Of a stretch of DNA of 64,000 bases, positions 395 to 52,759 are shown in pieces; within the stretch, counting starts at the first letter, position 1; every line of letters starts with the position of its first letter. Both the position numbers and the translations under genes were made by a program. Origin of the DNA: Aphrocallistes beatrix (lineage: Eukaryota; Porifera; Hexactinellida; Sceptrulophora; Aphrocallistidae); assembly GCA_963281255.1 (NCBI GenBank), contig OY725488.1, positions 2,393,986 to 2,457,985 of the forward strand, in the 5' to 3' direction. Below the pieces are notes generated by a model. It ran no database searches and had not been told where the DNA came from. It saw only the letters and a list, made by a program, of their open reading frames with translations.

Positions 395-1121
395 ATGGAT
401 TTTACTATAACTGCAGGTAAAAAGGGTACTTCTCTGCACTATCTTTCTCAAGGTTTTAGATATTCCTTAACGCAAATATATTCTGGCACTAAATATTTAC
501 GTTGCACTTTATGGAAAACAAACCCATGGAATTGCCCAGGAAAGGCTCATATACATGATATGAGTAGCTTACTTATTGTGAAAAGGGGTCACAATCACTC
601 TATAGAAGCTTATAATTCTGAATCAATCGATCTCAAGAACAAATTGAAACGTGCCGCTGAAAACTCAACTCTTCTCAACTTGAGGGAGATATTTGACGAA
701 CAAACAAGAAATGATGCAGCAGGAGCATCAATTTCATTTCCTAAGGTAAGAAGTACAATGGCGGAACGACGAAAAACCCAATTTCCGGGATTGCCAAATA
801 CGCCTGAGGCGTTTCAAGCAAAGATTTTACAATCACGTTTCATAGATTGTTTTCGGGGTAGTGTGACTTTGGCAGAAAACGAAGGTACTGCTGTCATATT
901 TATATCAGACTTGATGATGACCCAACTTGCTAATGCAAAGAAAATTAACTATGATGCAACCTTTTTCGTGGTTCCAAAAAATTTTTATCAACTTTTTACC
1001 ATTTTCTTTCACCATGATGGCCATTCCTTCCCATGCATCCACGTATTAATGAGCAGGAAAACTGGAACTCTGTATATAGCAGTCTTTCAAAATATTTTGG
1101 AAATTGTGCCTGATTTTAAAC
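395..1121 (+). CDS. MULE transposase, N-terminal part: FLYWCH zinc finger and start of the DDE domain
   Basis: This open frame carries a FLYWCH-type zinc finger at about residues 15-70 with ligands C37, C47, H66 and H68, followed by a linker and the start of a MULE transposase domain. The first catalytic aspartate is probably D187 in NYDATFFVVP. The expected role is binding element ends in the nucleus and cutting them. The frame is cut after DFKP by the Harbinger insertion. If the insertion and one copy of its CAG duplication are ignored, the reading frame continues directly into the piece at 4399, so the interruption came after a working gene. The first ATG shown may be preceded by an exon. 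Confidence 0.7.
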
Positions 1122-1632
1122 CAGCGGCCGTATTCACTAAGAACTTAAGATCGATCTTAAGATCGATCTTAGTGCTTAAGTCTTAAGTTCGATCTTAAGT
1201 CGTATTCACTAAGATTGGTATTCACTAAGATTTAAGTTCGATCTTAAGACCGAACTTAAGACCGAACTTAAGACCGAACTTTAAGCAACCTAGGGAGGTG
1301 TCTTAAGTATTGGAATTGATTCGATTTCCACTAATTACTCCATAAATGTTGTTCAAAATTACTTCTATCGAACATTGAATCTACCTTGTTTGATATTAGA
1401 CTTCAAATAAAATTTAAATATTTAAAAAACATTTCGCTTATTGTGTGTAACATCGCAACATGTATCACATGCTATAGTTCGTGGCATATTCTTCTTGGGT
1501 TTATATGAATAAACAAGCATACATTCTTTGATTGTATAATCTTACACTAATTCTAACATGCATTATTATAGAGACGGCTTTATATATTGATTCACATGAC
1601 TGATGATAATTACTTTGATCCTATTTTCCTAT

Positions 1633-2370
1633 TTACAATGATTTTTCCAGCAGTCTCTGACGTTTTAATCGATAATAGTCCCTCTGTTCTTCTATTAACT
1701 GCAGCTGTGCTGAGAATACAGCCATCTGCTGGAACAAAACTTCCTGCTGTAACGGAAGTAAGTCTGCAGCCTTCAAGAGTTCGACAGAATCATCTCGTTC
1801 ATCAACAGTTCGCCTTCTCTTCCGACTTTTTTTTGATGCCTTATATGTTGTCGGTATTTCAATTTCTGGAGACTCTAAAATTGGAGTATCTTCAGATTCA
1901 TCTGGACCTGTAGCCGATACTGTTGACGCTATTGCTGGTGCTAGAAAAAGATCAGCAGCACCTGAAATTCCACTGAAAGCAGGGGTGTTTTGGAACATCT
2001 CTGTTACCCGATCTGCAGAGTCAGCAAAAATACTTCTATCTGCTGATAGGATTTGCATATCTTCGTCTTCTACCTGTCCAGCACTGTTTGCACCTCCTCC
2101 AGTCTTTCTGGCTTCCCTAAAGCTGGCATCAACTTTGGACTTTGCGTTTAGCTTTAGGTTGGTCCATTTTTTTCTGATATCCTCTACAGCTCTGACATTG
2201 CCATGTATTGAGTTGAGTTTGGCTGCGATGTCTCTCCAGATTTGTTTCCTCCTTTTGTTTTTGTCGGCAGAATTTCCTGACCCTCTCAATATATCACCTG
2301 CTGACTCAATTTCATTAATGAGACTGCACTCTTCTTCTCTGGTCCAATTTGATTTTCGTGTTTTTTCCAT
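1633..2370 (-). CDS. Harbinger Myb/SANT-like DNA-binding protein
   Basis: This is a 245-residue protein with a Myb/SANT-like trihelix at about residues 7-85. The spaced tryptophans are W9, W45 and W69, and the domain has the KTRKSNWTREEE start and the IRKKWTNLK end usual in the second protein of Harbinger elements. The middle is acidic and serine-rich, followed by a basic patch (SKKSRKRRR) that could be a nuclear signal. The C-terminus is a glutamine- and leucine-rich helix, likely a coiled coil. In known Harbingers this partner brings the transposase into the nucleus and to element ends. It lies downstream of the transposase on the same strand, about 300 bp away. Confidence 0.85.
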   Translation of the reverse strand: MEKTRKSNWTREEECSLINEIESAGDILRGSGNSADKNKRRKQIWRDIAAKLNSIHGNVRAVEDIRKKWTNLKLNAKSKVDASFREARKTGGGANSAGQVEDEDMQILSADRSIFADSADRVTEMFQNTPAFSGISGAADLFLAPAIASTVSATGPDESEDTPILESPEIEIPTTYKASKKSRKRRRTVDERDDSVELLKAADLLPLQQEVLFQQMAVFSAQLQLIEEQRDYYRLKRQRLLEKSL

Positions 2371-2665
2371 TTGTTTCGGTATTGTTAATGCAAGTACTCA
2401 GCAGCAATTTATATACACGGGAAGACGCCGACTTACCATAACCACTAATGACACCATTTATTTTCGTAACACCAAATGACGCAGAAATCTTAACGTCGAT
2501 AGAAATTTATTTTACTTCTCATATCCAGTGTTTATATTTTGTCTTAGAGAGGTTTTCATGTTACAATATACAAAGACACGTTGTTTATATGTTTTGTTTA
2601 ATATAATATTATGAATGCATGAGATACAACTTATGCTCTTTGATAGCTCCTAAATTTAGATTAAT

Positions 2666-3646
2666 TCAACTAAAGTTATGAATAGCAAACTGATCCCTGT
2701 AGTGTTTTGCAGCAATATGTCCAGTTTCCTCAAATGTAAACGGTTCATCCATAATGCTTGTATGATGGTCAATAGTGGAATCTTCCAACATGGGCTGCTT
2801 CCAAACAATAGCCATATTATGAAGAACAGCACAGGCAAGAATAATAGTGCAGACTTTATCTGGAGCCATCCGGATCTCGCCGTGAAGGCAATGAAATCTT
2901 CTCTTCCATCTCCCAAAGGTTTGCTCAATCAATACACGCGTTTTTTTGTGGGAGTAATTATAATTCTCTTGGGCATTTGAAGCAGGTTGTCTGTATGGAG
3001 TTAATAAATAGGGTTTCAGCATATACCCAATATCACCTAATATATGCTCACCAGCCAAGAAGTTATTCTCCACATATGTTCCGACCTGAGAGAGCTTCCA
3101 AATACGTGAATCATGAACTGAACCGGGGAATCTTGCCAATACATCGGAAAATCTACCATCAGGTAGACAGATAGCTTGGACATTTATGGAGTGGTAGAAA
3201 TGTCTGTTTACATAATCTGCCTCATTTTCAGAAGGCTTTTGAATACGAACATGCGTTCCATCTACAAATCCAAGAACGCCGGGGAGGTTCGCGAGCTCAT
3301 ATAACTGTGACTTAATCGTAGCCTTGTCAGCAGAACCGGGCATGCTAATGAACTTTGAATATATCGATTGCAGTCCAAGTGCAACGGCTCTGATGTATCT
3401 GCAAGCTGAGGGTTGGCTCACGTGAACTCCATCACCACAAATAATCTGAAAAGTACCAGATGCAAAAAATTGTAGAGCAACACAAACTTGTACGTGTGGA
3501 TGTGCAGCATGAGATCTATCAGTTGTATTAAGATGATCAACTATGATCTCTGTAATCTTTAATATTGCTGACCTTGAGAAGCGAAAACGCTGCAACAATT
3601 CTAGATCATCATAGAATTCCAGAGGGTCACTACGATCTCTGAACAC
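2666..3646 (-). CDS. Harbinger transposase (HARBI1-like DDE nuclease)
   Basis: This is a 326-codon open frame with the DDE_4 transposase pattern. D129 lies in GFVDGTHVRI, D179 in PGSVHDSRIW and E241 in LIEQTFGRWKRRF, and LACAVLHN follows near the C-terminus. Spacing and length fit an active family member. The frame as listed begins at a GTG. It stays open upstream through a CT/GA microsatellite to about 3688, where a stop sits just before a CAG that could be a splice acceptor. The true N-terminus is therefore probably encoded in an upstream exon, which I could not place. No internal stops or frameshifts are visible. Confidence 0.9.
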   Translation of the reverse strand: MFRDRSDPLEFYDDLELLQRFRFSRSAILKITEIIVDHLNTTDRSHAAHPHVQVCVALQFFASGTFQIICGDGVHVSQPSACRYIRAVALGLQSIYSKFISMPGSADKATIKSQLYELANLPGVLGFVDGTHVRIQKPSENEADYVNRHFYHSINVQAICLPDGRFSDVLARFPGSVHDSRIWKLSQVGTYVENNFLAGEHILGDIGYMLKPYLLTPYRQPASNAQENYNYSHKKTRVLIEQTFGRWKRRFHCLHGEIRMAPDKVCTIILACAVLHNMAIVWKQPMLEDSTIDHHTSIMDEPFTFEETGHIAAKHYRDQFAIHNFS

Positions 3647-3688
3647 TCTCTCTCTCTCTCTCTCGAGTGACTCTTCCGAATCTTCTGC

Positions 3689-18880: not shown

Positions 18881-21190
18881 GGTGGCACTAGCGACAAGTA
18901 TTATATCACTGCCCTTTGCAAATGAAGATGTATCTGATCTCGTTGATGGACTCGATATTGGAATGATTGCCACACTAACGAATCAAACTATTGAAAAATA
19001 TGTACTCAACAGTCATCTCCCTTTACCAGATAAGTTTCCTGAAGATAGTCGTAATCAAGCATTTCCAATTTCAATTTTTAAGTACAGAAATCACAATGGA
19101 GAGATAGTTGAGAGAGATTGGTTGGTATGGGCAGGAAAAAAGACGCACTATTTTACTTCCCATGTCGTCTATTTAGTAAAGGTCTAAAAGTCAATTCATC
19201 AGCATTATCTTCTCAAGAAGGATGGCCTTAAACTGTTAAATGGAGAAAATTATGTGATATAATTCAGAGCATGAAAGGAGTAACAATCACAAACATAATT
19301 ATCTGTCTTGGAGAGAATATGAACTAATATTGAAATAATCTCAATGCATAGAAAATAGCTTGTCTGCACAAATAGAACCTGAAGAATCTAAATGATATAA
19401 AATTTGGGAACGCTTGATTGACATTGTATTGTTTTTAGGCGAAAGGGGTTTGGCATTTCGCAGTTCAATACACCTCATCGATAGTCCTCAAAATGGAAAC
19501 TTTCTTGGTTTGATTGAACTTCTTTCCCATTGGGACCTAATTCAAGAAGACCATGTGAAGAAGGTTAAAGAAAATCAACAGAGAAATGAAAGACTCCAAG
19601 TTCATTATCTATCAGCAGATTCACAAAATGAATTAATCGACTTATGCTCAGTTCTGGTGTTAAAACGTATACTACTAGAGAGATCAAGTGCAAAATATTA
19701 TTCTATTATGGTTGATGCAACACCTGATTCTTCTCATGTTGAACAGACGACTTTCATCATTCGATATCTCACATCAAACCAGGGACAAATTGAAATAGTA
19801 GAGAGATTTCTTGCGTTTGCTGATTGCAGTGAAATAACCGGATCTGCAATCGCCAGTTTGATTTTAAAGACTTTGAAATAAAATGAAATTCCGTTAACAG
19901 ATTGCCGAGGACAGGGATATGATAATGGTGCTAACATGGTGGGGAAATACAAAGGTGTACAAAGCCATGTAATTCAAGAGAATTCATTTGCCATTTTATC
20001 ACCTTGTGGTTGTCACACTTTGAATCTATGCGGTACCGATTCTGCAGAATGTTGTTTAGAAGCGATTACTTTTTTTGGTACTATTCAATCTATATACTAT
20101 ATTCAGTTCCAGTCCTAAAATATGGGAAATTCTCCAAAAACACTGTCACAACGAATCCCTACATAGTCAATCTGGAACTAGGTGGTCAGAGAGAATAAGC
20201 AGTGTGAAGCCTTTTGCAGCTAACCTAAGTGGTATTAAAGAGGCACTTAAAGAACTCTTGGAGCTTAATTTAACTCCGAAAACTAGAACTGAAGTGAATG
20301 GAGCTATTACATATGTCTCGTCCTTCCGTTGCATCCTAATGTCATCAATCTGGTTCAAGACTTTAGCGCCTATTGATACTTGTAACAAAATCATCCAGGC
20401 AAGAAATGCTACAGTTGATATGGAAGTTAGTAACAGTGAAATTCTGATAAAAAACCTGCAAAATTTACGTTCAGATTTTAAAAGAATATTGTCTGAAGCA
20501 AAGGAGGTAGCAAATAATCTTGGTATTGAAATTAAGTTTGAAAGACAAAGGAAGAAAAAGCGATTCTTCGATGAATCAAAATTTGATGAAGAAAATCTGA
20601 GTGAAATTGGACAAAATACTGAGGAAGAAGTTCATTTTAATAACTATGTATTCAATGTAATAATTGATAGTGTAATTGGCGGACTTAAAAATAAATTTGA
20701 GGCTACAAAACAGATATCATCAAAGTTTTCGTTCTTGTGGAAATATTTGAGCACAACTGAAGAAGGGCTGATAGAAAAATCCAATTTTTTAGCAGATATT
20801 TACACGAAAGATATAAATGGGGACGATCTCGGGATAGAAATGGTTGATCTGAAAAAGCTCATTCATCCGGGTAACTTTGGAGAAAAACAATTAAATCCTT
20901 TTGAATTACCTAACAAGATTCTTACCTATAAGTTGGAGAATATAGTTCCAAATATCTGTGTGTCTCTTCGAATTTTTCTCACTATTCCAGCAACTGTGGC
21001 ATCTGCTGAAAGATCATTCAGCAAACTCAAGCTAATCAATAATTATCTGAGGAGTACAATGTCACAAGATCGAGTGATCAGTTTGGCTCGATTGAGTATT
21101 GAGTCTGAACTAGCTAGAGAGATCGATTTTAGAGATGTAATAAAAGCCTTTGCTCGTGAGAAAGCGAGAAGGGCATTATTAAATGTCTAG
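18881..21190 (+). pseudogene. hAT transposase of the ZMYM1/DUF4371 type, broken
   Basis: Frames at 18882-19187, 19414-19881, 19900-20118 and 20075-21190 line up in order. The first ends with HYFTSHVVYLVK, where the TTF-type finger would be. The second has YYSIMVDATPDSSHVEQTT, the nuclease core start, and the third has CHTLNLCG. The last is long and intact and ends in the dimerisation region with IPATVASAERSFSKLK and NYLRSTMSQDR. At least three stops or frame changes separate them, for example a stop near 19879 and a shift near 20100. The 371-codon C-terminal frame could still be translated, but it lacks the catalytic half. Confidence 0.85.
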
Positions 21191-22617: not shown

Positions 22618-23592
22618 TATATTATAAAAAGGCGAATCTAATCATTAAATATGTATCCAAATGCGGCTATTATGCTAAATAATGAATAGAATTGGCGTTA
22701 ATAATGTGTACATAAAAATTGGATTGTCATACGATGACGTAGCATTTTTCGAAAATCCTAACTTGGAAACCAAAAGTCGTAGACTTTCACTCTATCTTCC
22801 CAATATACTTTTTGGAAGCTCATCATTCATTCTAAACTGATAGATTATACTTCGTAGTGCCTGGAATATAAATTATTATTTACAATTATCTCAAAATATT
22901 CGGGGTTAGGGGGCTCAATGAAATTTATGGATTTTCAGGGTTCTCTTGCTATTTTTTGTAAATATTTGGTTCGAATGTACCTAAATCAGCAGTATAAATG
23001 CGAATACATGTCTGTGAATGCTTTTGTTCACTGTTAAAAACTCATTATACATTCTTCTTAACATCTAAACTTATGATTTCTATATCGCGGGACTTTAAAA
23101 TTTCAAAATTGACCGTCTTTACAGAATCTTAACTCAAAATTGGTTTGAGATAGAGGTTTGAAAAAGTTGTTCCACATCATTATGCGATGACGTAGGACCA
23201 CTTTATTTTCGATATCTTATAACTTGTTGATTTTATTCCTGATTTCCCAAATAAAACAGACATTTTCCGTTTTTTGTCCCTTTTTTTTCGGACACCGATA
23301 AAATTTACAATTTTTGTCATTTTAAATTTCTTTTGTTCCTATGAAGTTGCAAATATGGTTGACTATCTATGTATCGATTTTGGAAGCATTTTATTCCATG
23401 GTTTGTCCTGTTGCATGAGATTTCTACTACCTTGAGATTTTTACTACTTTGAATACATGGACCATGGATATGTATTAATAATGAGATTTCTACTACCGTG
23501 AGATTTTTACTACCCTAATCTTAGCAGTAATAAAAAACTTCCATCCCTAGTCGAGATTTGATTATCTTTTAACACTACACTCCTAGTATTTA

Positions 23593-26500
23593 ATGTCAAA
23601 TATCTACCCCAAGTTATTGTATTTGTTAATAATAATCAATCTTGATAATATGGACGATTCAGAATATGGAGAACTTGTTAATTATTTAACAACAAAGACC
23701 CTACCATCTCGTCTACTGTCAGCTACAAAATTTGCAAGAGCTAATTTTAAAACATTTACTTCATCATTTCAATTAGGCGGAGACAATCTTCTTTATAAGG
23801 TTAGTGAATTATATCATCATCATCATCATCATTACCAATTAATTTACTTTTTTAATAAACAATTTTTTAGTTATATTCACTAAAAGGCCAGGATAGCCTC
23901 CTACTTCGTTACCCAAATAAAAACGATTTACCAGACATCCTTCGTTTATACCATGACACGGAACATTGCGGCAGGAATCAAACAGCTGAAATGATACAGT
24001 CCAAGTATAGATGGAAGGGCATGCATGAAGATATCCGTAAATATGTAAGTACAGTCGACTCTCGTTAACACGTACACCAAGGGACCGTGGAGATTTGTAC
24101 TCCTTATCCGGAGTACGTATTAACCAAAGTACGTACATAGCCACATTTGTCCAAAATACTTAATATACATAGTGATAACTACGTGAGAGTATGAAATTGT
24201 ACTTGTCAAATAGAGAACTCATTATCCTATATGTTGTATTAACGAGATTCGATTGTATTTTCATTGAGAAATATCTGTCTAGTATCTATCTACGTACATA
24301 CTACGTACCAATTCAAAGTGCTCGTAGGCACAAACCTGTTCGTATTATCCGTGTTCGTATTAACCGATGTATTTAGTATTGAAAACGCACTGAAGGGGAC
24401 CCACAAATCGTACTTATTATCCGATATTTCGTCTTATCCGTGTTCGTGTTAACCGGAGTTCGTTTGTATATATTTTGCCATAGATCAGGTTGGGGAATCA
24501 AAACTTGTACTTCTTATCCGATTGTACTCCTCTTCCGTGTTCGTATTAACGAGAGTCGACTGTATACTGTACTATTGTAGAATTATATAACAAATAAAAC
24601 CTAAAAAAGATTTAACAAATATAAATACGTTAAACATGTGAAGTTATCTAATTAAGGGAAGGTTTACAAAATTTGTCGTTAATTAAAATTTGGTCCCAAT
24701 TTGGGAATAAAAAATTCTCCATTCAACTTTCCTGTTTTTATCAGAATTTTGCATAACTATGAGATTGGAATCTGCAGTAAAATTTTCAAATCGTTTTAAA
24801 ACTTCAGAAGTTAGTTCTGATACCGAAAACTGATCCGTGAGGATTAATTTTTTGCTTATAGTGTAAAAGTTGTAACAAGTGCCAAATGAAGGCTCCTCTT
24901 TTGCCACAACCTCAGCGAAAATTGCAACCAATTGCGCCACCAAAGTCTCCTTGGCACCATATCGGTATGGACTTGATAACTGATTTGCCAGCTAATCCAG
25001 AAGGATACAGACATGTGTTAGTGGTTGTATGCTACCTAACCAAGTTCGTTGCTGCAAGTGTGTTATAGTCCAAAACAACGAAATCAGTTATCAACGCACT
25101 CTCTGAAATTTATCTGATCTACGGCGTTCCAGCAATTATTCAGCATGATCAAGGCAAAGAATTTACAAGCAAGGTTCGTATTATATTACGAAATTGAGAA
25201 TTAATTCATTATTATCTTGTGTACTATTAATAAATATAAAGCGGACTATTCTAGTTCCTCTTGTTCCGCTGCTTAATAGTTCAAAATTGTTAGTGGGTAA
25301 GGGCGCTTAGTGGTTGCGCAACGTAACGAAGTATCGGAGGGAAAATGTTGAATATTCCCTGCTACTTGTAAAATGTATAAATCATATCGGATATATTCAA
25401 TGAAATGGTTTTAGCATTGTGTAATGTTGAAAGAGGGGGTATCTATTTTGTGACATGGTGTGACTGAAGGGGTAGGGTATGTTTGGGGCCATTTTAGCGA
25501 TAATATTATCATAATTATGTAACGTTTGAACGGTCTACTGGACAGTTCAAGTAGTGAGGGTCTACTTGTTTAAATAATTAAATTTATGTTAAATTATGTT
25601 AAACTAGGGAGATACCTAATATTCTTGTCCTGCCAGGAAATCGGTAGCTTGATCAGGGCATCAGATTAACCAAAAAGTATGGGGGAGGGACCTGGGGCCT
25701 TATTCACTCAAGTTGTATTGTCAAATTCTAAGAATTACCTGAAATTCAATCAATTTTTCTAAAAACGACAATTCTTAGAAAATAATTAATGATGTCGAGG
25801 GTTCACTAAACTTGTATTAAATAGGTATTTGACATCATTATTTCAACCTCTATTTTACTAGATCTTTCAATCTTTCAATTCCAAAAAGTTAAATTGTTAT
25901 AATACGTACATTACAATTAATTAACAATGCCATCATGATGACGCTAGATAAAAGCCATACTACTATATTACGCATTATATTTGTGGTGAAGATGAAATCT
26001 TGCTGTTATTAATAAACATGATTCAAATTGAAGCTGATGCAACATTTGATTACTTGTAAATTTGAACTACATAACTTACGTAAAAGAAACCAAAAATAAG
26101 CAATGAATTGTAATACTTAATATCAAGCGGTTTCCATTTTTAGCATCAGCTCATGATACAATCTATCTAATATACTATGTATGGTATGACAGTTGCATTG
26201 AGCTAAGAGATTGCGCTATGCGTACGTAGTCAAATCAAGTAATACTAGAGTGACAATACAACTTCTAACTAATGACGAATATTATGTTTCATTATTTAAT
26301 TAATCTATACTTTGCGAGTACGAATACCATCTACGGTTCTAACGATTATCGTGAACAGGAAACTTTCAATAAAAAAATAGTTTGTTGATAAATTTGTAAA
26401 GAAATTATATTTCGGTAGGCTAATTCTACTAAATAAATAAATAAATTCATTCTCTTCAATAACTAGTACTTGTAAATGAATATTTCAGCATACTTTAATG

Positions 26501-29500
26501 GGTGATGTTAGATTTGATAATGTGTCAGGCTATGGCAATCAATACCCGCTAAAGAATTAAATTAAAACAGTGCAAATATTTGAGAGATATTCTAAACTAA
26601 TGTACATATAATGAATGTATCCACTGATAAATAAATTTTTGTTATATTCGAATTAGGAATTCAGGGACTATCACAATACCCTTGAAGTTGACAATCGTGC
26701 TACTACCGCTTACCGTCCCCAAGGGAATGGCCTCGTAGAATATCATAACAAGATAATCAAGAGGTATGTATTTTGAACATTATTATTATCCTTACTATTA
26801 AAACTCGATTAATGTATATTTATTTATATAGTATATATATATATATCTGTAACGAATTGATTGAAGAAACTGCCAGGCGCAGAAAGCTGATTTTTTGGCA
26901 TGTGGGAGTATTTTGGCTATGGCTCCAGCAAGTTCTGAGCTCAGACGAAAATGTCGACTCATCATGGAATTATGACGTCATTGTCACATTTTTGTTAAGC
27001 AACACAGTTATTCGAGCATAACTCAGCCATTATAGGAGATAGAAGACTGAAATTTTAATAAAATCTGTATACTAACAAAAATGATGACTCATCACTTTGC
27101 TATGACGTCATCATTACTCATCAAAATTTTAAAAATTGACAAATTTGGTGATTTTTCGTGCGATGTCGAATATAACAGTAAGACAGACATATTTAGGGAT
27201 GTTATCTCCCATATAATTAATCAATGTGACCACAGGCGCCCAAAGGGCGCCTCCGGCGGACACAAAGTGTCCGCCAGCCGCGCAGCGCAAGCAAACGAAG
27301 CGCGCTTGTTATTATGATATTCCAAAATACTTTCACATGTAAACAAACGTAGAAAAATTTCGATGATGATGGCGGATAATGACGCAGGTTGGCCGAGTAA
27401 GCTACAAGCCGCAGTATTATCAGCGAATATTCATCGGAAGCTTTCGACCGACTATAGCCCATTCCAGCTGATGTTTGGACGTAATTTTGACCATCTTCCC
27501 CTTCTCCGATTACTGAAGTTAGACACTTTAAGCTCTGCGAACCTATCCGAAGATGAGACATCCAGTGAGAATGATTCCTGCTGGATTGTAGATTTAGAAC
27601 AGCAAAGGGTTGTTGAACGTGCTAATGCCAGAACAAATATCAAGATAAAACAAGGAAAACAAAAGAGATCATATGACCTCAAAGTCGATTCCACCAGGTA
27701 ACTACAAGTATAATAGTAATATATATATAAATTAATTTTCTTTGAGCGATCAGTTAATCATCTTATAATTTTTAGGCCACGATTCGAGATTAGTGATTTA
27801 TTCATTGTCTTCGACAAAACAAAGGAGAAAAAAATGCCAGGAACAAAGGATAAACCGATGTATATGGGTCCTTTTGAAGTAGCTGACTTAACTGATAGTC
27901 ACTTAATCGCTAAAACAGGTGATAAGATGAAGAAATACCCAATTCATCTTACAAGGAAGTACTATTCTCGATTTATTGAAGTAAGTATATTTTTAGTACA
28001 ATACCCTATCTTACATTTTCCTATATTGACTAACAACAATATCAGGATACAGAATCTGATGCTACACCTATTATGGGGAAACGAAGCGCTGACGAGGTCA
28101 ATTCCACAGACAGTCAAGCATCAATTCTTCAAACAAGTAGAAACAAACACGTCAAGGTCTTTATATACATTTAGAATTTGTGCAGATATGCTGTGATAAA
28201 ATATGCTAGTAATCACAAACAAGAATTTTAACGATCAACATTCACAATATCAAAACCAAAACTTAGTAAAATTGAGTCTAAGTCTAAGTTTAGTGTACTA
28301 GAGGGAGAGACACTGCTGATTCTTACAAAAGTGTACTATATTTAGGTGGATACGAAGTGCTTGACAAACTGTTTTTGTTCTTTGTTTCGAAGTATGTATC
28401 GTATACTATTTTACCTTTAGGAGGAAATTATCAGGCACATAAAGAAAGATACCTTACTTTCTCAATTACATCGAGAGCTATCCAATTCTCCTGTAAAGGA
28501 TATAATGCTACCAATTTCAATATTGCTATCGGTTATCAAGGATGAAAGTTCGTCATCACTGGCAAGTTACTGATATATATTTGCTTCATCTGATTAAACA
28601 ACTAGCTATATGATGTATATACACCCTATATTATTTTACTTAGAGAGAGGAAATCATTAACCACCTCGTTCAATGGACTGAAGTAGCCTTCTCGGAGAAG
28701 AAGCAGCTTCCTCATCCAAAACCATTTGACTATGTTTATCAGATCCTCTATGCAACCGTGAGTAAATTCGGGTTTATTTATTCTTTTAAAATAATTCATA
28801 AAATTAATATGTACGTAAATATAGGTCATAGAATATCTAGAAGATCAGCTGATTGTCTCAAGAACTCAACAAGATCTCAAATCGCTCCCTTATACATTCC
28901 ATCAATTCAAAAATCAAGACATTCCTAATTATTCTCCGATATCTAGAGAATGGCAAATATCAAAGTGCAATCTGTTACAACTTCCATTCGAGAAAAAACT
29001 ACCTCAGGCAGATTATTACGTTGGAAAACCGCTAGGAAGTTTCATTCCCCTTGAACAGTATCCCATAGAACGCGATGGTAACTGCTTTTTCAGAGCTATC
29101 TCAGCCGCGCTAACGGGTTCAGAGAATCACCACGAGAAAATTCGCGGGGAGGTTTATAGATTTATTGGAGTTCAAGGAGCTAGCTACATTACACGCTACC
29201 TTGAATTAAAATTTAGCAAGCTGTCATCAAAGCACTATCTTTTACAGTCACAAATGGGTAGTGATCATATTTGGGCAACCGACGTCGAAATAATGGCAGT
29301 ATCCATGATGTTAGGGATATACCTGTTTGTTGCGAACTTCCATTGTGATTCGAAGAAAACATACAACGAAATAAGATGGTATCGCTACCATTTTTATGAA
29401 GAGCACAGATCTAACCAAGCGATGTACCTAACTAATTTTGATGAACATTTTCAGCCTGTTACAGACCTAATTAACTGCCGCTATCAGTCATATTTTACTT

Positions 29501-29541
29501 CGGACAGTTTTAGCAGTGCAGTTGTAATAGACGACGAGTAA
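23593..29541 (+). CDS. Ginger1 transposase: zinc finger, integrase-like DDE core, GPY/F motif, OTU protease; about 11 exons
   Basis: Exons with GT-AG borders and matching phase: 23650-23799 (or from ATG 23593), 23871-24044, 24862-25173, 26657-26763, 27353-27697, 27776-27980, 28046-28156, a short one near 28347, about 28422-28564, about 28642-28757, and 28825-29541. Exon 2 has the LLLRYPNK motif and HDTEH, and exon 3 completes the H2C2 finger with KSCNKCQ. The catalytic triad is D (24970) in IGMDLI, D (25147) in QHDQGKEF and E (26738) in LVEYHN. Exon 6 has YMGPFEV, the GPY/F motif. The last exon holds the OTU domain, with Cys in RDGNCFFR (29083) and a candidate His in DEHFQ (29446). The gene is nearly whole, with one in-frame interruption seen, so this copy is probably inactive. 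Exons 8-10 are the least certain. Confidence 0.8.
24052..24562. mobile_element. Tigger/pogo-type MITE in Ginger1 intron 2
   Basis: The termini CAGTCGACTCTCGTTAACAC and, inverted, CAGTCGACTCTCGTTAATAC are flanked by TA (24050-24051, 24563-24564). The ends resemble those of Tigger elements. The 511-bp interior repeats short GTACGTATTAACC-like motifs. It begins seven bases after the splice donor. Confidence 0.8.
25174..26656. other. Long Ginger1 intron 3
   Basis: This 1.48-kb AT-rich intron lies between the two parts of the DDE core. It holds a GGGGCCTTATTCACTCAAG stretch (25691) like other Harbinger-type MITE ends, with no partner end identified. No exon was recognised. Confidence 0.4.
26789..27308 (+). 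mobile_element. HLR full copy in Ginger1 intron 4
   Basis: It starts TCCTTACTATTAAAACTCGA after A, ends GCGCGCTTG before T, and has no duplication. The hairpins AGGCGCCC-AAA-GGGCGCCT (27234-27252) and GGCGGACAC-AAA-GTGTCCGCC (27255-27275) are perfect here. It lies between splice donor 26764 and acceptor 27352, so it would be removed from the mRNA. Confidence 0.6.
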
Positions 29542-30213
29542 CAGTTTTTCACTTATTCTATTATAAATATTAAATAATTATTTGTTGTTTGTAATTAGCT
29601 ATTTACCCTGTTAGAAATTATTGATATCGTAATTGTGATAATAATGATTATGATGTGAAATAGAAGAATTACAAAACAAGTTTCGGATTGACGTAATTTC
29701 TGACAGTTTATTTTCGGGGTGAAATCATTTGCATTCTACTACAGTAGTACAGAGCAATTGTAGTGTGTGATTAAGATACTGTTTCAATGGTGACGATGAC
29801 CTAATTCACTTTAATCACATTAAGAATGCTTGTTCTATGCTTTGTTGATTAAGTATCACACATTATATTACAAAAATTCAAAATAATGTTTTTTTCTCAT
29901 CCCAGTATATGTAAATGTCCGTTTAGATCTTCGAATAGATAACTAGATTTGTAATTTGGGAGCCTTACGAATTTCAATTTCTAATATATTCTAGTTTTTC
30001 TATCCAACTAAAAAATAAAATAACAAGTTTACTAACACACCATCTATTCTGCAATTTATCATAGTTTTATCTTATCATCATCAACCTTCAAATCACTAAA
30101 TAATGATTTCACCACTTTTAGGCATTAGTTCTAAAAGTGGTGAAAATATTATGTAGTGTAAAGTCTGGCTTAATTGTGAAGGAGCTGTGAACTATGGATA
30201 AATGCAGAGTGTA
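29542..30213. other. Ginger1 3' non-coding region with a perfect hairpin
   Basis: There is no coding signal. At 30107-30145 TTTCACCACTTTTAG pairs perfectly with CTAAAAGTGGTGAAA around a 9-base loop. AATAAA-like signals (AATAATT, AAAATAAAATAA near 30010) could serve polyadenylation. Confidence 0.5.
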
Positions 30214-30548
30214 GGTAGTAGAAATCTCACGGTAGTAGAAATCTCATGGTTAATACATATCCATGGTCCATGTATTCAAAGTGGTAAAAATCTCACGGTA
30301 GTAGAAATCAGTCCTAAACAATTCATTGAGGGACCGGATTTCTACCATTAAGATGTGCTAGCGAAAAACGAAAAAAACAGACTTTGAGACACTGTGTCTC
30401 AAAAATTAGAAATGAGAATCAAAAACGTTTTGGAATGTGCAAGTATTTCTTGACGGAGATACCTCCCCACGCTTAACATCACTTATAGCTCTACTTTTAT
30501 CGTATGCTGTAAGCCAAATCATGTTTTTTTCGAGGGCGGTATCCTTAA

Positions 30549-32170
30549 GCGTTGGCAGGTATCTCCATCAAGAAATACTTACACATTCCAAACCGTTTTT
30601 GATTCTCGTTTCTAGTTTTTGCGATACAGTGTCTCAAAGTCTGTTTTTTTCGTTTTTCGCTAGCATATCTTAATGTTAGAAATCGAGCCACTCAAGGAAT
30701 TGTTTAGGACATACCAAGGAAACAAATACTTCCAAAATCGAATCATAGATAGTCAACCATATTTGCAACTTCATAGGATCAAAAGAAAGTTAAAATGACT
30801 CAGATTGTAAATTTTATCGGCGTCCGAAAATAAAGGGCCAAAAAACGGCGAAAAATGTTTGGTTTTTTTGAAATCAGAAATAAAATCACCAAGTTATAGG
30901 ATATCAAAATAATGTGGTCCTACGTTCATCGCCTAATGATATGGAACAACTCTTGATATTTTCAAACCTCTACCTCAAACCAATTTTGACCTAAATTCTG
31001 TAAAGACGGTCAATTTTGAAATTTGAAAGTCCCTAGATATAGAGATTTTAAGTTTGGATGTTAAGAAGAATGTAATGAGTTATAAAAAATGAACAAAAGC
31101 ATTCACAGACATTTACTCGCATTTATACTGATGATTTGAGTAGATTCGAACCAAATATTTACACAAAATAGCAAGAGTACCCTGAAAATCCCCAAATTTC
31201 CTTGAGGCCCCTAACCCCGAATATTTTGAGATAATTGTGAATAATAATTCATATTCCTAGCACTACGAAGTATAATCTATCAGTTTAGAATGAATAAAGT
31301 GCTTCCAAAAAGTATATTAGGAAGTTAGAGCGAAAGTCTCGAATTTTAGTTTCCAAGTTAGGATTTTCGAAAAATGCTACGCCATCATATGACAAAAATC
31401 TAACATTCCATAGGATGTAGTGCAATTATTATCAATGAATTATATATGTACCCTCATAAAAAGAATATTAGGAAGTGAGAACTAAGAATTTGGGCTTATA
31501 TTTATAGATAGAGAGATATCTCCTTTTGGACCCTAAATGGGGGTTTTTGAACGAATCTGGGAGATCCAAGGCCTGAACTTTCAAAATAATTATCAAAAGT
31601 TCTCTAATTTTTCTGTACACATTATTAACATGAATTGTATTCATTATTTAGTGTAATTGCCACATTTTGATATTTAATGATTAGATTCGCCATTTTCTAA
31701 TATATTCAAAGTTCTCCATATAATTTGTTGAACAATCAAATCAAAAATAAGTCGAGAAATATTTAATTTTTGACAAAGGAATGTTTGAGGAACCTATATA
31801 TTTTCGCATTATCTTTTTATTTAAGAATATAATTGATTATATATCTTCAATAGTTTTTAAGATATGACATTGGCGTCTTTCGGGACTATAGAGAGATATT
31901 ATATAATCTCCAATTGTGCCAAAACAATGTTCCATATCATTGAAAAATTATCAAATAAGTTTAAAACTAATTGGTGAATGCATCAAAAACCTCCAATAAT
32001 TTTCAATTTTTAGCAATGATAACCTTTGGGGGTTAACTCATAACAATCAAAATAAATACCGTCCAACTAGTGCTATCAGATGGTAGACCGCTCAGTAATA
32101 CAATGAAATTAACAACAACAAATTTTGCCGCTTTTTTGACGCCAGGCAAGGTTTTTCGAGGGCGGTATCC
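30549..32170. mobile_element. TTE copy 2, right part (host of copy 1)
   Basis: This is the inverse of the copy-1 arm, ending TTTTTCGAGGGCGGTATCC before TTAA at 32171. Together with 21359-21394 it is the target into which copy 1 inserted. Copies 1 and 2 lie head to head and make a near palindrome of about 3.3 kb once the later insertions are discounted. There is no gene. Confidence 0.65.
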
Positions 32171-45583: not shown

Positions 45584-47551
45584 CAGTAGAACCCCGCGTA
45601 TCGGGGCGGTAGGATGGGAATTTGTTGTTTTTTTCACTAAAAGTGAACCCCGCCGTATTGGGGCGTCATTCGCTTATCGGGGCACTCCGCCAGAGATTTT
45701 TTTCCCTCAAGTAACATACGTTTTGTGCTTGAAAACTTTATTTTTCAATAATGGCCGCTAAGCGTCACCCACTCCCGATAGAGACACGTGCTGAGGTCAT
45801 TGAACTAAGCAAGGCAGGCAGCTCCGAGATGCAGATCGCCTTGCAGGTTGGAAGTAGTAAGGGTCAGGTCGGAAGAATTCTTAGAGATCAGCGTGACAAG
45901 ATCGAGAATCTCAAGGACGTTCAGGGAAACATTCCGAACAACCTCAAGAAGAGAAAACTTGTAGACATAACGCCAAAGTACTGTGAGATCGAGAATGCAT
46001 GCGTGCTTTTTCTTGAGAGAGCCAAAGAGTATGGAATTCCGGTACAGATCCAATGCTGCGCACTCTTGCTCTGCGCGGGCTGAGAACCGCAACATCCAAT
46101 GGTTCTCTGCCTCTGAAGGTTGGCTTGATCGTGTGAAGAGACGCCATGGGATTCGCGGAAGGCAACTCAGTGGCGAGGCGGCATCGGTCAACAAGGTAGT
46201 AGTGACAAACTGGATGAAACAGATCCCAGAACTGATCGAAGGTTACGACCAGAAAGATGTTTTTAATTGTGATGAAACTGGTCTTTACTACAAACAGTCC
46301 ACATCACTTTCGCTGGTAATGCCGGGTGATTCCCGTCATGGCGGTAAGGCTCAGAAGGAGCGAATCACCCTACTCATATGCTGCTCTTGGATGGGCGAAA
46401 AAGTGAAACCCCTCATCATAGAGAAGTCTGTCAGGCCGAGGTGTCTTCATGGTGCGGATCTTGACAACATGGCGATTTCCTATAAATCCCAGAAAAGTTC
46501 GTGGATGAACGGAGACATCTTCTCCTGGTGGATGAACGAATTTGAAACCCTAATGTTTCAAGCTGGCCGCAAGGTTTTGCTGTTTATGGACAACGCAACT
46601 GTTCACAACAGTGTCGAACTAATGCAACTCAGGGCCGTCAAGGTTGTGTTCTTCCCCAAGAACTCAACTTGTTGCACTCAGCCATGTGATGCAGGTATCA
46701 TCCAGACTGTAAAGCTTCTCTATCGGAAGCAGCTGCATAACTTCATTCTCAGCACTCTCACGCATGAAGGTGGGGAAAGAATGTACCCGTACAAGGAAAT
46801 CAATATTTCAAGGGTGATTGTGTGGCTCTTCCAAGCTTGGTGCGACCTCAAGCCAGCAACCATCATGAAGTACTTCGCCCACTGCGGGTTCTCTGAAGCC
46901 GGGGAGATAATTGAGCCACAAAAGGCAGCCCTACAGGGGATGGAGGTAGATACTCTGCTCTCGGCTGAGGAGGAACAGATAGACATATTTCCCCCCGTTA
47001 TGGAGCCAGAAGAACTGTTTGACGTGGTGGTGACTGAATTGAATGACCAGCTGAATGAAGCTTCTCTTCAGGCAATTCCACCTATCGAGATCATTAAGCC
47101 AGAGGAAGATGTGGCAGAGATTCCAAACAACAAGCAGGTACTGCAGGCCATTGATACAATCGAGCTGTACGCTGCTGGTCGTGGAGACGACGAAGTGCTG
47201 GGAGGAAACTTCAACCTAGCGTGGTATAAGCAAGTTGTCGAGGGTAGAGCGTATATGGAGGAGAGGCAAACCACCGTGGATGATTTTTCAAGAAAACGAA
47301 TTAGTAGATGTTATAACGTTATGACTCTCCTAGTGCACGTAGAATTATGTAAATGTGAAGTGATAATGTGTAGTATTGTGCATAATTATCAGTCTATGTG
47401 TCTGGTTGTGTTGTGTAGGTTGTAACTTGATTATTTTCACAAAAGTACAAGTATATTATAATTTTCCCAGAATTCCGCTTATCGGGGCACTCCCTCGTAT
47501 CGGGGCGCATTGTGCTTGGACGGAGGTGCCCCGATACGCGGGGTTCTACTG
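45584..47551 (+). mobile_element. pogo/Tigger DNA transposon, young
   Basis: The ends are exact inverted repeats, CAGTAGAACCCCGCGTATCG on each side for at least 23 bp, with TA on both sides (45582-45583, 47552-47553). A second block, CGCTTATCGGGGCACTCC, stands near both ends in the same direction. The element is clearly more GC-rich than its surroundings, which suggests recent arrival. It landed in the TA run of an HLR-type repeat. Confidence 0.92.
45751..47425 (+). pseudogene. Tigger/pogo transposase (TIGD-like) with one frameshift
   Basis: The N-terminal frame (45751-46083) has a CENP-B/psq-like helix-turn-helix, KRHPLPIETRAEVIELSK through GQVGRILRDQRD. The second frame takes over near 46050 and carries the rest of the CENP-B DNA-binding half (FSASEGWLDRVKRRHGI) and the DDE_1 nuclease. 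The nuclease residues are D in VFNCDETGLYY (codon 46271), D in LLFMDNATVH (46589) and D in TQPCDAGIIQ (46688), with 32 residues between the last two. A single frame change in the 46040-46085 region is the only break I see. Such transposases bind the ends and cut at TA. The tail after 47290 may be read-through. Confidence 0.9.
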
Positions 47552-52036: not shown

Positions 52037-52753
52037 TCAGTCTGCGGCCCGCGTGCAACTCAGCACTAAACTATTTGTCTGTGGATGGTATGGGGCAGAA
52101 AATATTAGTTTGCAGTTATAACTTTCATGCAGTTCTTTGGAGATCAGATTGGTAAACTCTGTTCCATTATCGGTGATTGTCTGCACTGGAGCTCCTTGGC
52201 GACAATAAATTGAGAATATTCCTCTTGCTACCTCATTCACCTCTTTCGAACGTAGCGGCCGGGTCTCGATCCACTTAGTAAAATGGTCCCTAAATGTTAG
52301 AATGTACTTATGACCATCTAATTTAACAAGTGGAACGGTAAGATCCATTCCTACACGATACCAAACCTTAGCTATAACAGGTAATGGTTTGAGTGGAACT
52401 GTTGGACTTTTTAGATTGGGTTGATTTCTTTGGCATCTAATGCAATTATTCACATGCAATTCAATATAATTGTACATTCCTGGCCAGTAATACCGATCTT
52501 TTGCAATATTATAGGAGTATCGAGGACATTGGTGACCTGCTTGGTCATGGATTTCACCCAATATGCTCGGTACATCTACTAACTAAATCACGAATGCTGT
52601 TGTATTAGCAAAAAAATTTATGAACTTGTTTTTCTGAATCAGGTACTTGCTAGACCTTTTACGTAAATTTTGCTTTTGATCCTTTGAATAATTACAGGGA
52701 TAAGTTTGATCTTTCAAGTATTTCAGAATGATCTCGTACTCAGAGGGGTTCAT
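52037..52753 (-). pseudogene. Gypsy-integrase-like (Ginger/GIN type) transposase fragment
   Basis: From ATG at 52753 the protein begins MNPSEYEIILKYLKDQTYP. This parallels the start of the Ginger1 protein (MDDSEYGELVNYL) rather than an internal Pol segment. An H2C2 finger follows (HDQAGH, then NNCIRCQRNQ), then the catalytic core with VGMDLTVPL and ITDNGTEF, ending at APYHPQTNS. The third catalytic residue and all beyond are missing, and the sequence joins a short unrelated stretch with GGCCCGCGTGC. No LTRs or inverted repeats were found around it. It is truncated and broken. Confidence 0.6.
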
Positions 52754-52759
52754 TGTGGT

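Follow-up and report, generated by a model that had tools for sequence, protein, structure and literature searches.

The 64,000-nucleotide stretch of Aphrocallistes beatrix DNA analyzed here (the window) contains, very probably, a cut-and-paste-type DNA transposon in defective form. It belongs, on this reading, to a Ginger1-like lineage that targets GNNC and carries an integrase-OTU gene predicted to be spliced by the host from 10 exons. The presence of a Ginger1-type element with the ends, duplication, and length given below is confirmed, the ends having been fixed by comparison with other copies. The Ginger1-like reading is supported by the architecture, the 4-bp duplication, the length of the terminal inverted repeats (TIRs), and the protein domains.

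23405..23408, no strand: left target site duplication GTCC (sequence; empty-site match)
23409..30310, plus strand: Ginger1-like element, 6902 bp
23409..23514, plus strand: left TIR, which begins TGTTGCATGA and holds repeated GAGATTTYTACTACC-like motifs
30214..30310, minus strand: right TIR, lacking 9 bp near the terminus
30311..30314, no strand: right target site duplication GTCC (sequence; empty-site match)

The element has TG...CA ends, and its left terminus, TGTTGCATGAGATTTC, is found again in other copies. Both of the 100-bp inverted repeats reported in the preliminary description can be recognized as two arms (23419-23514 and 30214-30309, 96 nt, 95% complementary within the window), but the right one is short: it ends in GAAATC-A, followed by GTCC, and the 9 bp absent near its tip are present in all five other right termini read (L010, L011, L012, L014, and L016). 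The GAGATTTYTACTACC-like motifs are repeated in the inverted repeats of the window element, and the number of 66-bp units in these repeats varies among the copies L009-L021, being unequal at the two ends of L012.

The element is hosted by a high-copy palindromic repeat (window positions 23180-23408 and 30315-30930), which gives 88 match rows in the sponge's own genome. When the flanks are joined at one GTCC, they match straight through the junction, at 87-89%, the other arm of the palindrome in the window, a repeat on contig C11 in both of its arms (the overlapping loci L032 and L034 are one place there), and one arm of L033; each of these matches carries a single GTCC at the junction. The second L033 arm matches at only 73% and has an altered site. 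Because the joined flanks match unoccupied repeat arms, the GTCC duplication is a genuine insertion footprint. The boundaries and the readable 4-bp duplication proposed in the preliminary description are thus borne out, and the termini agree with those of other copies.

Elsewhere in the window, Pfam searches revealed the following transposon-like genes.

395-1186, plus strand: FLYWCH and a weak MULE match
1636-2397, minus strand: Myb/SANT
2669-3688, minus strand: DDE_Tnp_4 (Harbinger type)
20060-21187, plus strand: hAT dimerisation region
45971-47422, plus strand: DDE_1/Tc5

The duplicated tetranucleotide conforms to a rule. The terminus TGTTGCRTGAKATTTC has 52 exact matches, which belong to families 1 and 2 and small relatives; 45 of the 52 are preceded by GNNC (GTAC in 18 of the 45) and 7 are not; the base composition of the window predicts GNNC before ∼3% of termini, the two termini of one element not being independent observations. 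The reversed pattern of TGTTGCRTGAKATTTC, used as a control for this search, gave 0 matches. The preliminary description had suggested aligning other genomic copies to define ends and duplications, and the same ends do recur: 14 pairs of inward-facing termini lie no more than 15 kb apart, and 12 of them have identical 4 bp on both sides, the other two reading GTAC/GTGT and GTTA/GTTC. The same ends and 4-bp duplications also bound short copies of 134-622 bp. In 32 flanks from the window and the fetched loci (families 1-3 and relatives), the counts by position are 25 for T at −6, 19 for A at −5, 29 for G at −4, and 31 for C at −1. In family 3, L029 has GGCC on both sides and L030 has an imperfect duplication, GGCC versus GGCT; in a fourth, intronless group, the duplications on both sides are GAAC in L035 and GTGC in L036. 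The 5′ terminus is TGTTG in families 1 and 2, which fits TGTNR, and TGTTT in families 3 and 4, which does not. The 5-kb copy L010 and the 0.4-kb relative L025 occupy the same GTAC in two copies of one host sequence (24-bp flanks read; flank matches of 71-85%).

The best gene model has 10 exons separated by 9 introns; its 791 codons include a single internal stop, at codon 177.

23650..23799, plus strand: exon 1, with the ATG and a possible YPYY region; seen in copies
23871..24044, plus strand: exon 2, with the H2C2 histidines; seen in copies
24052..24562, no strand: nested insertion in intron 2, 511 bp with TA on both flanks; absent from L009-L012 and L016
24862..25173, plus strand: exon 3, with the H2C2 cysteines and the catalytic residues D145 and D204; interrupted by an in-frame stop (25066-25068)
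26657..26763, plus strand: exon 4, with catalytic E240
26790..27308, no strand: repetitive sequence nested in intron 4, with approximate borders; L016 and L017 lack it
27353..27697, plus strand: exon 5 (gene model; copies)
27776..27980, plus strand: exon 6, with the GPF of the GPY/F motif
28046..28156, plus strand: exon 7 (gene model; copies)
28421..28561, plus strand: exon 8, directly followed by a GC-AG intron
28644..28757, plus strand: exon 9 (gene model; copies)
28825..29541, plus strand: exon 10, with the OTU cysteine protease (D637, C640, H761) and the stop codon at its end
28157-28420, 28562-28643 (GC-AG), and 28758-28824, plus strand: introns of the gene model additional to the six named in the preliminary description

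That description had counted about 11 exons; the multi-exon gene stands, with 10 exons in the model. Its six introns (23800/23870, 24045/24861, 25174/26656, 26764/27352, 27698/27775, and 27981/28045) all have GT...AG ends and the same coordinates in the model, and sister copies have them too wherever the borders can be read, with the exception of two borders in L010. Of the nine introns in total, 28562-28643 is GC-AG and the other eight are GT-AG. The great length of introns 2 and 4 is largely due to the nested insertions.

The predicted product would be a transposase that resembles Gypsy integrases and bears an OTU deubiquitinase domain at its C terminus, presumably produced in cells by host splicing of the 10 exons. 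It contains the zinc ligands H78, H82, C109, and C112 (H2C2), the integrase core D145-x58-D204-x35-E240 (DD35E), GPF at residues 394-396, and the OTU residues D637, C640, and H761, so that the GPF motif and OTU residues noticed earlier are indeed in place; the catalytic, zinc-ligand, and OTU roles are those usual for such residues in these families. Pfam matches to the spliced protein, all exceeding the gathering score, were Integrase_H2C2 (E = 1.4e-15), rve (3.9e-10), and OTU (4e-6). Among PDB sequences, the core best matched the PFV integrase (2.3e-23), with Ty3 (3.6e-14) among the other matches, and an OTU profile built from three families matched OTUD1 (1.6e-6) and OTUD5 (2.8e-6). No reverse transcriptase was detected in the spliced protein or in 10 of the window's other listed reading frames. 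A possible YPYY region was read by eye only, as Y12, P19 (preceded by L, not Y), and Y49 in the window model; YP is present in L029, L035, and L045.

The complete catalytic triad noted previously is present as D145, D204, and E240, but codon 177 in exon 3, between the first and the second catalytic Asp, is a stop in the window copy. Four of the nine sister copies can be read at this point (L010, L012, L013, and L015), and all four have a sense codon there. Judging from this stop in the core, the loss of 9 bp near the right terminus, and the nested insertions in two introns, the window copy is dead and is unable to make a full-length transposase.

The window element was aligned with nine partial copies (L009-L017) from the same 100.5-Mb genome (28 contigs); none of the other copies fetched has all ten exons. 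Their readable exon borders retain GT (GC for intron 8) and AG, with exceptions only in L010, where the exon 6 donor is TT instead of GT and the exon 2 acceptor enters a gap. Differences between the window and the copies are lowest at the second codon position (2.2%, 81/3602), compared with 3.1% (113/3602) at the first, 4.2% (151/3600) at the third, and 3.9% (386/9897) in introns after removal of the nested insertions. The chi-square test gives p = 1.6e-5 across codon positions, p = 2e-5 for positions 1 and 2 versus introns, and p = 0.47 for position 3 versus introns; these values are rough because the copies share ancestry. An extra 14-bp stretch in exon 9, common to L011 and L017, would shift the frame under the present model, which leaves it unexplained; its sharing suggests common descent of two copies that would both be frame-shifted.

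The exon structure extends to more distant relatives. A protein search of the genome, in which 57 of 1649 candidates were scored, yielded 87 rows; its counts are therefore lower bounds. At least 27 of at least 87 rows (window included, 50-98% identity) start at residues 104-110 and end at 212-217, the borders of exon 3, and at least 5 cross the exon 3/4 border at 212/213 (C3:5314692, C6:1064141, C15:1116285, and C3:5437977 and C13:1885821 of the intronless group). Family 2 (L028, with L027 where readable) is ∼45% identical to the window protein over residues 110-363, and family 3, compared through L029, 31-62% depending on the segment; over the OTU exon, identity to the other families is 32-34%. 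Splice sites of introns 2, 3, and 9 are found at matching places in families 2 and 3. The donor of intron 5 is common to the window and family 2. Family 3 shares the intron 1 donor, the intron 7 acceptor, and, at intron 8, the acceptor together with what is likely a GT donor. Intron 4 is missing from family 2, in which exons 4 and 5 form a single reading frame; this family has GPV in place of GPF. A search for Wnt, intended to place the host among animals, matched neither this genome nor any of 14 control genomes and is thus uninformative.

Published Ginger1 elements were compared by description. The 4-bp duplication has the length given as characteristic of Ginger1 in a study of IS481EU (PMC10045372). 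The Ginger1 elements with an OTU domain (Ginger1-1/2/3/11_HM and Ginger1-1_AC; PMC2836005) resemble the window element in the 4-bp duplication, TIRs of 40-270 bp, TGTNR start, H2C2, DDE core, GPY/F, C-terminal OTU, protein of 500-800 aa, and total length within 2.6-7 kb, and differ from it in having a CCGG/CCGT target and 0-4 introns, compared with GNNC and 9 introns here. The preliminary description was therefore right that GTCC is unlike the published duplications, which among 112 Hydra elements are CCGG in 75% and CCGT/ACGG in 24% (PMC2836005), and the GNNC rule in other copies and families shows the difference to be real; this duplication is the sole published Ginger1 trait that the window element was tested for and lacks. 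The intron number, which that description had called high for a transposon, is indeed so, with 9 introns against the 0-4 reported for Ginger1 (PMC2836005). Ginger1-5_HM and the Gin-1 and Gin-2 genes also have a Ginger1 integrase gene with introns (PMC2836005). However, Ginger1-5_HM has 4 introns, the first of them GC-AG, and a Ulp1 domain instead of OTU; three introns of the Gin genes are common to it. Ginger2/Tdd elements share with the window element 4-bp duplications (in animal families), TGTNR ends, H2C2, and DDE, but their target is AT-rich (RTATAY) and GPY/F is lacking according to the same source, as opposed to GNNC and GPF here. Since other copies and families share both the GNNC target and the intron number, these look like lineage traits, and the element can be regarded as a member of a Ginger1-like lineage that is set apart by an intron-rich gene and by a target rule of its own.

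Similarity of the integrase to those of Ty3 and spumaviruses, together with the TG start and CA end, could also be taken to indicate a remnant of a Gypsy-type LTR retrotransposon, of which the integrase and OTU part was left between unrelated inverted repeats. We consider this highly improbable. Gypsy elements have direct LTRs and a reverse transcriptase, whereas the terminal repeats here are inverted, the same ends with 4-bp duplications surround many copies including the short ones, and neither reverse transcriptase nor RNase H was seen in the frames scanned. Passage through an RNA intermediate is expected to remove introns. On the inverted repeats, the recurring ends with duplications, and the absence of reverse transcriptase from the scanned frames, this explanation was rejected. 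Domestication of a Ginger1 element into an immobile host gene, as with Gin-1, Gin-2, or Imagin (PMC12863088), would account for the many introns, of which the Gin genes have 6-8 (PMC2836005). It is, if anything, still harder to credit and was rejected too, given the inverted repeats, the target duplication and empty site in a high-copy repeat, the nine partial copies elsewhere in the genome, and the stop codon within the integrase core.

A more serious contender is that target preference and intron number vary widely among unpublished or Repbase entries, so that the window element is an ordinary Ginger1 with nothing special about it. This carries appreciable weight, while falling short of an even chance: the 2010 paper tabulated 16 Ginger1 families (PMC2836005), and later literature on Ginger1 was sparse in the searches made. 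Against it, the published elements have 0-4 introns and 99% of them CCGG or CCGT/ACGG duplications (PMC2836005), in a comparison that lies outside Repbase. No report of a GNNC or GTAC target for Ginger1 was found in the literature searched, likewise outside Repbase.

For a cut-and-paste-type transposon of the Ginger1-like lineage, the sequence features allow the following cycle to be predicted. Host splicing would yield the integrase-OTU protein, which may bind the repeated motifs of the terminal inverted repeats and catalyze joining of the TG...CA ends to both strands of a GNNC target, at points staggered by 4 bp; repair by the host would then produce the 4-bp duplication. Excision would be a further step. 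During transposition, the OTU domain would probably deubiquitinate the transposase or host factors. A role in transposition and repair was proposed for proteases of this kind by Bao, Kapitonov and Jurka (2010; PMC2836005).

The intronless group carries a different C-terminal region. Its Ginger1-like open frame of 911 codons (L035:2067-4802, minus strand) ends in a region of ∼420 residues with N-T-C, C-x2-C, G-H, and H-F invariant in seven aligned members, and this domain recurs at ∼30% identity across many loci (L035, L036, and L037-L047), its hallmarks in L035 and L037-L047 being N-T-C, paired cysteines, and a late histidine. In L039 and L040, it is found on the same strand as, and up to ∼4 kb downstream of, intron-type integrase exons, where a single element is a candidate only. 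The domain had no match below E = 0.01 in Pfam (best 0.068), no match in NCBIfam, and only chance-level matches to PDB sequences (best 0.27); against viral contigs, 8 stretches matched and 0 were confirmed. No publication linking Ginger DNA transposon, deubiquitin, and integrase was found in the literature searched. From the N-T-C and H-F pattern, one might guess that the region is a ubiquitin protease. An 813-codon open frame in L046 (179-2617, minus strand) starts like an integrase, has stretches rich in cysteine, and shares its C-terminal domain with the L035 group, and the window itself has an integrase fragment of that group (52037-52759, minus strand; H2C2 and rve) with 62% identity to L035 over residues 22-259.

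A bolder proposal, which we put forward tentatively and rather doubt, is that this distinct Ginger1-like lineage kept an ancestral intron-rich gene, moved its target to GNNC, and swapped its C-terminal protease: OTU in families 1-3 versus the undescribed domain, maybe a third type of ubiquitin protease, in sister families whose integrase exons have the same borders (L035 and L037-L047). If true, recurrent replacement of one deconjugating protease by an unrelated one next to a single integrase would imply that ubiquitin removal belongs to the transposition reaction. The OTU domain and its possible alternative bear on the reason for the presence of ubiquitin or SUMO proteases in Ginger1. With its conserved, intron-rich gene, the lineage allows a direct test of the origin of the 6-8 introns in vertebrate Gin genes. 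Finally, as the published Ginger1 target is highly specific, elements of the same architecture that use GNNC would form natural pairs with CCGG or CCGT users for locating the target-reading residues.
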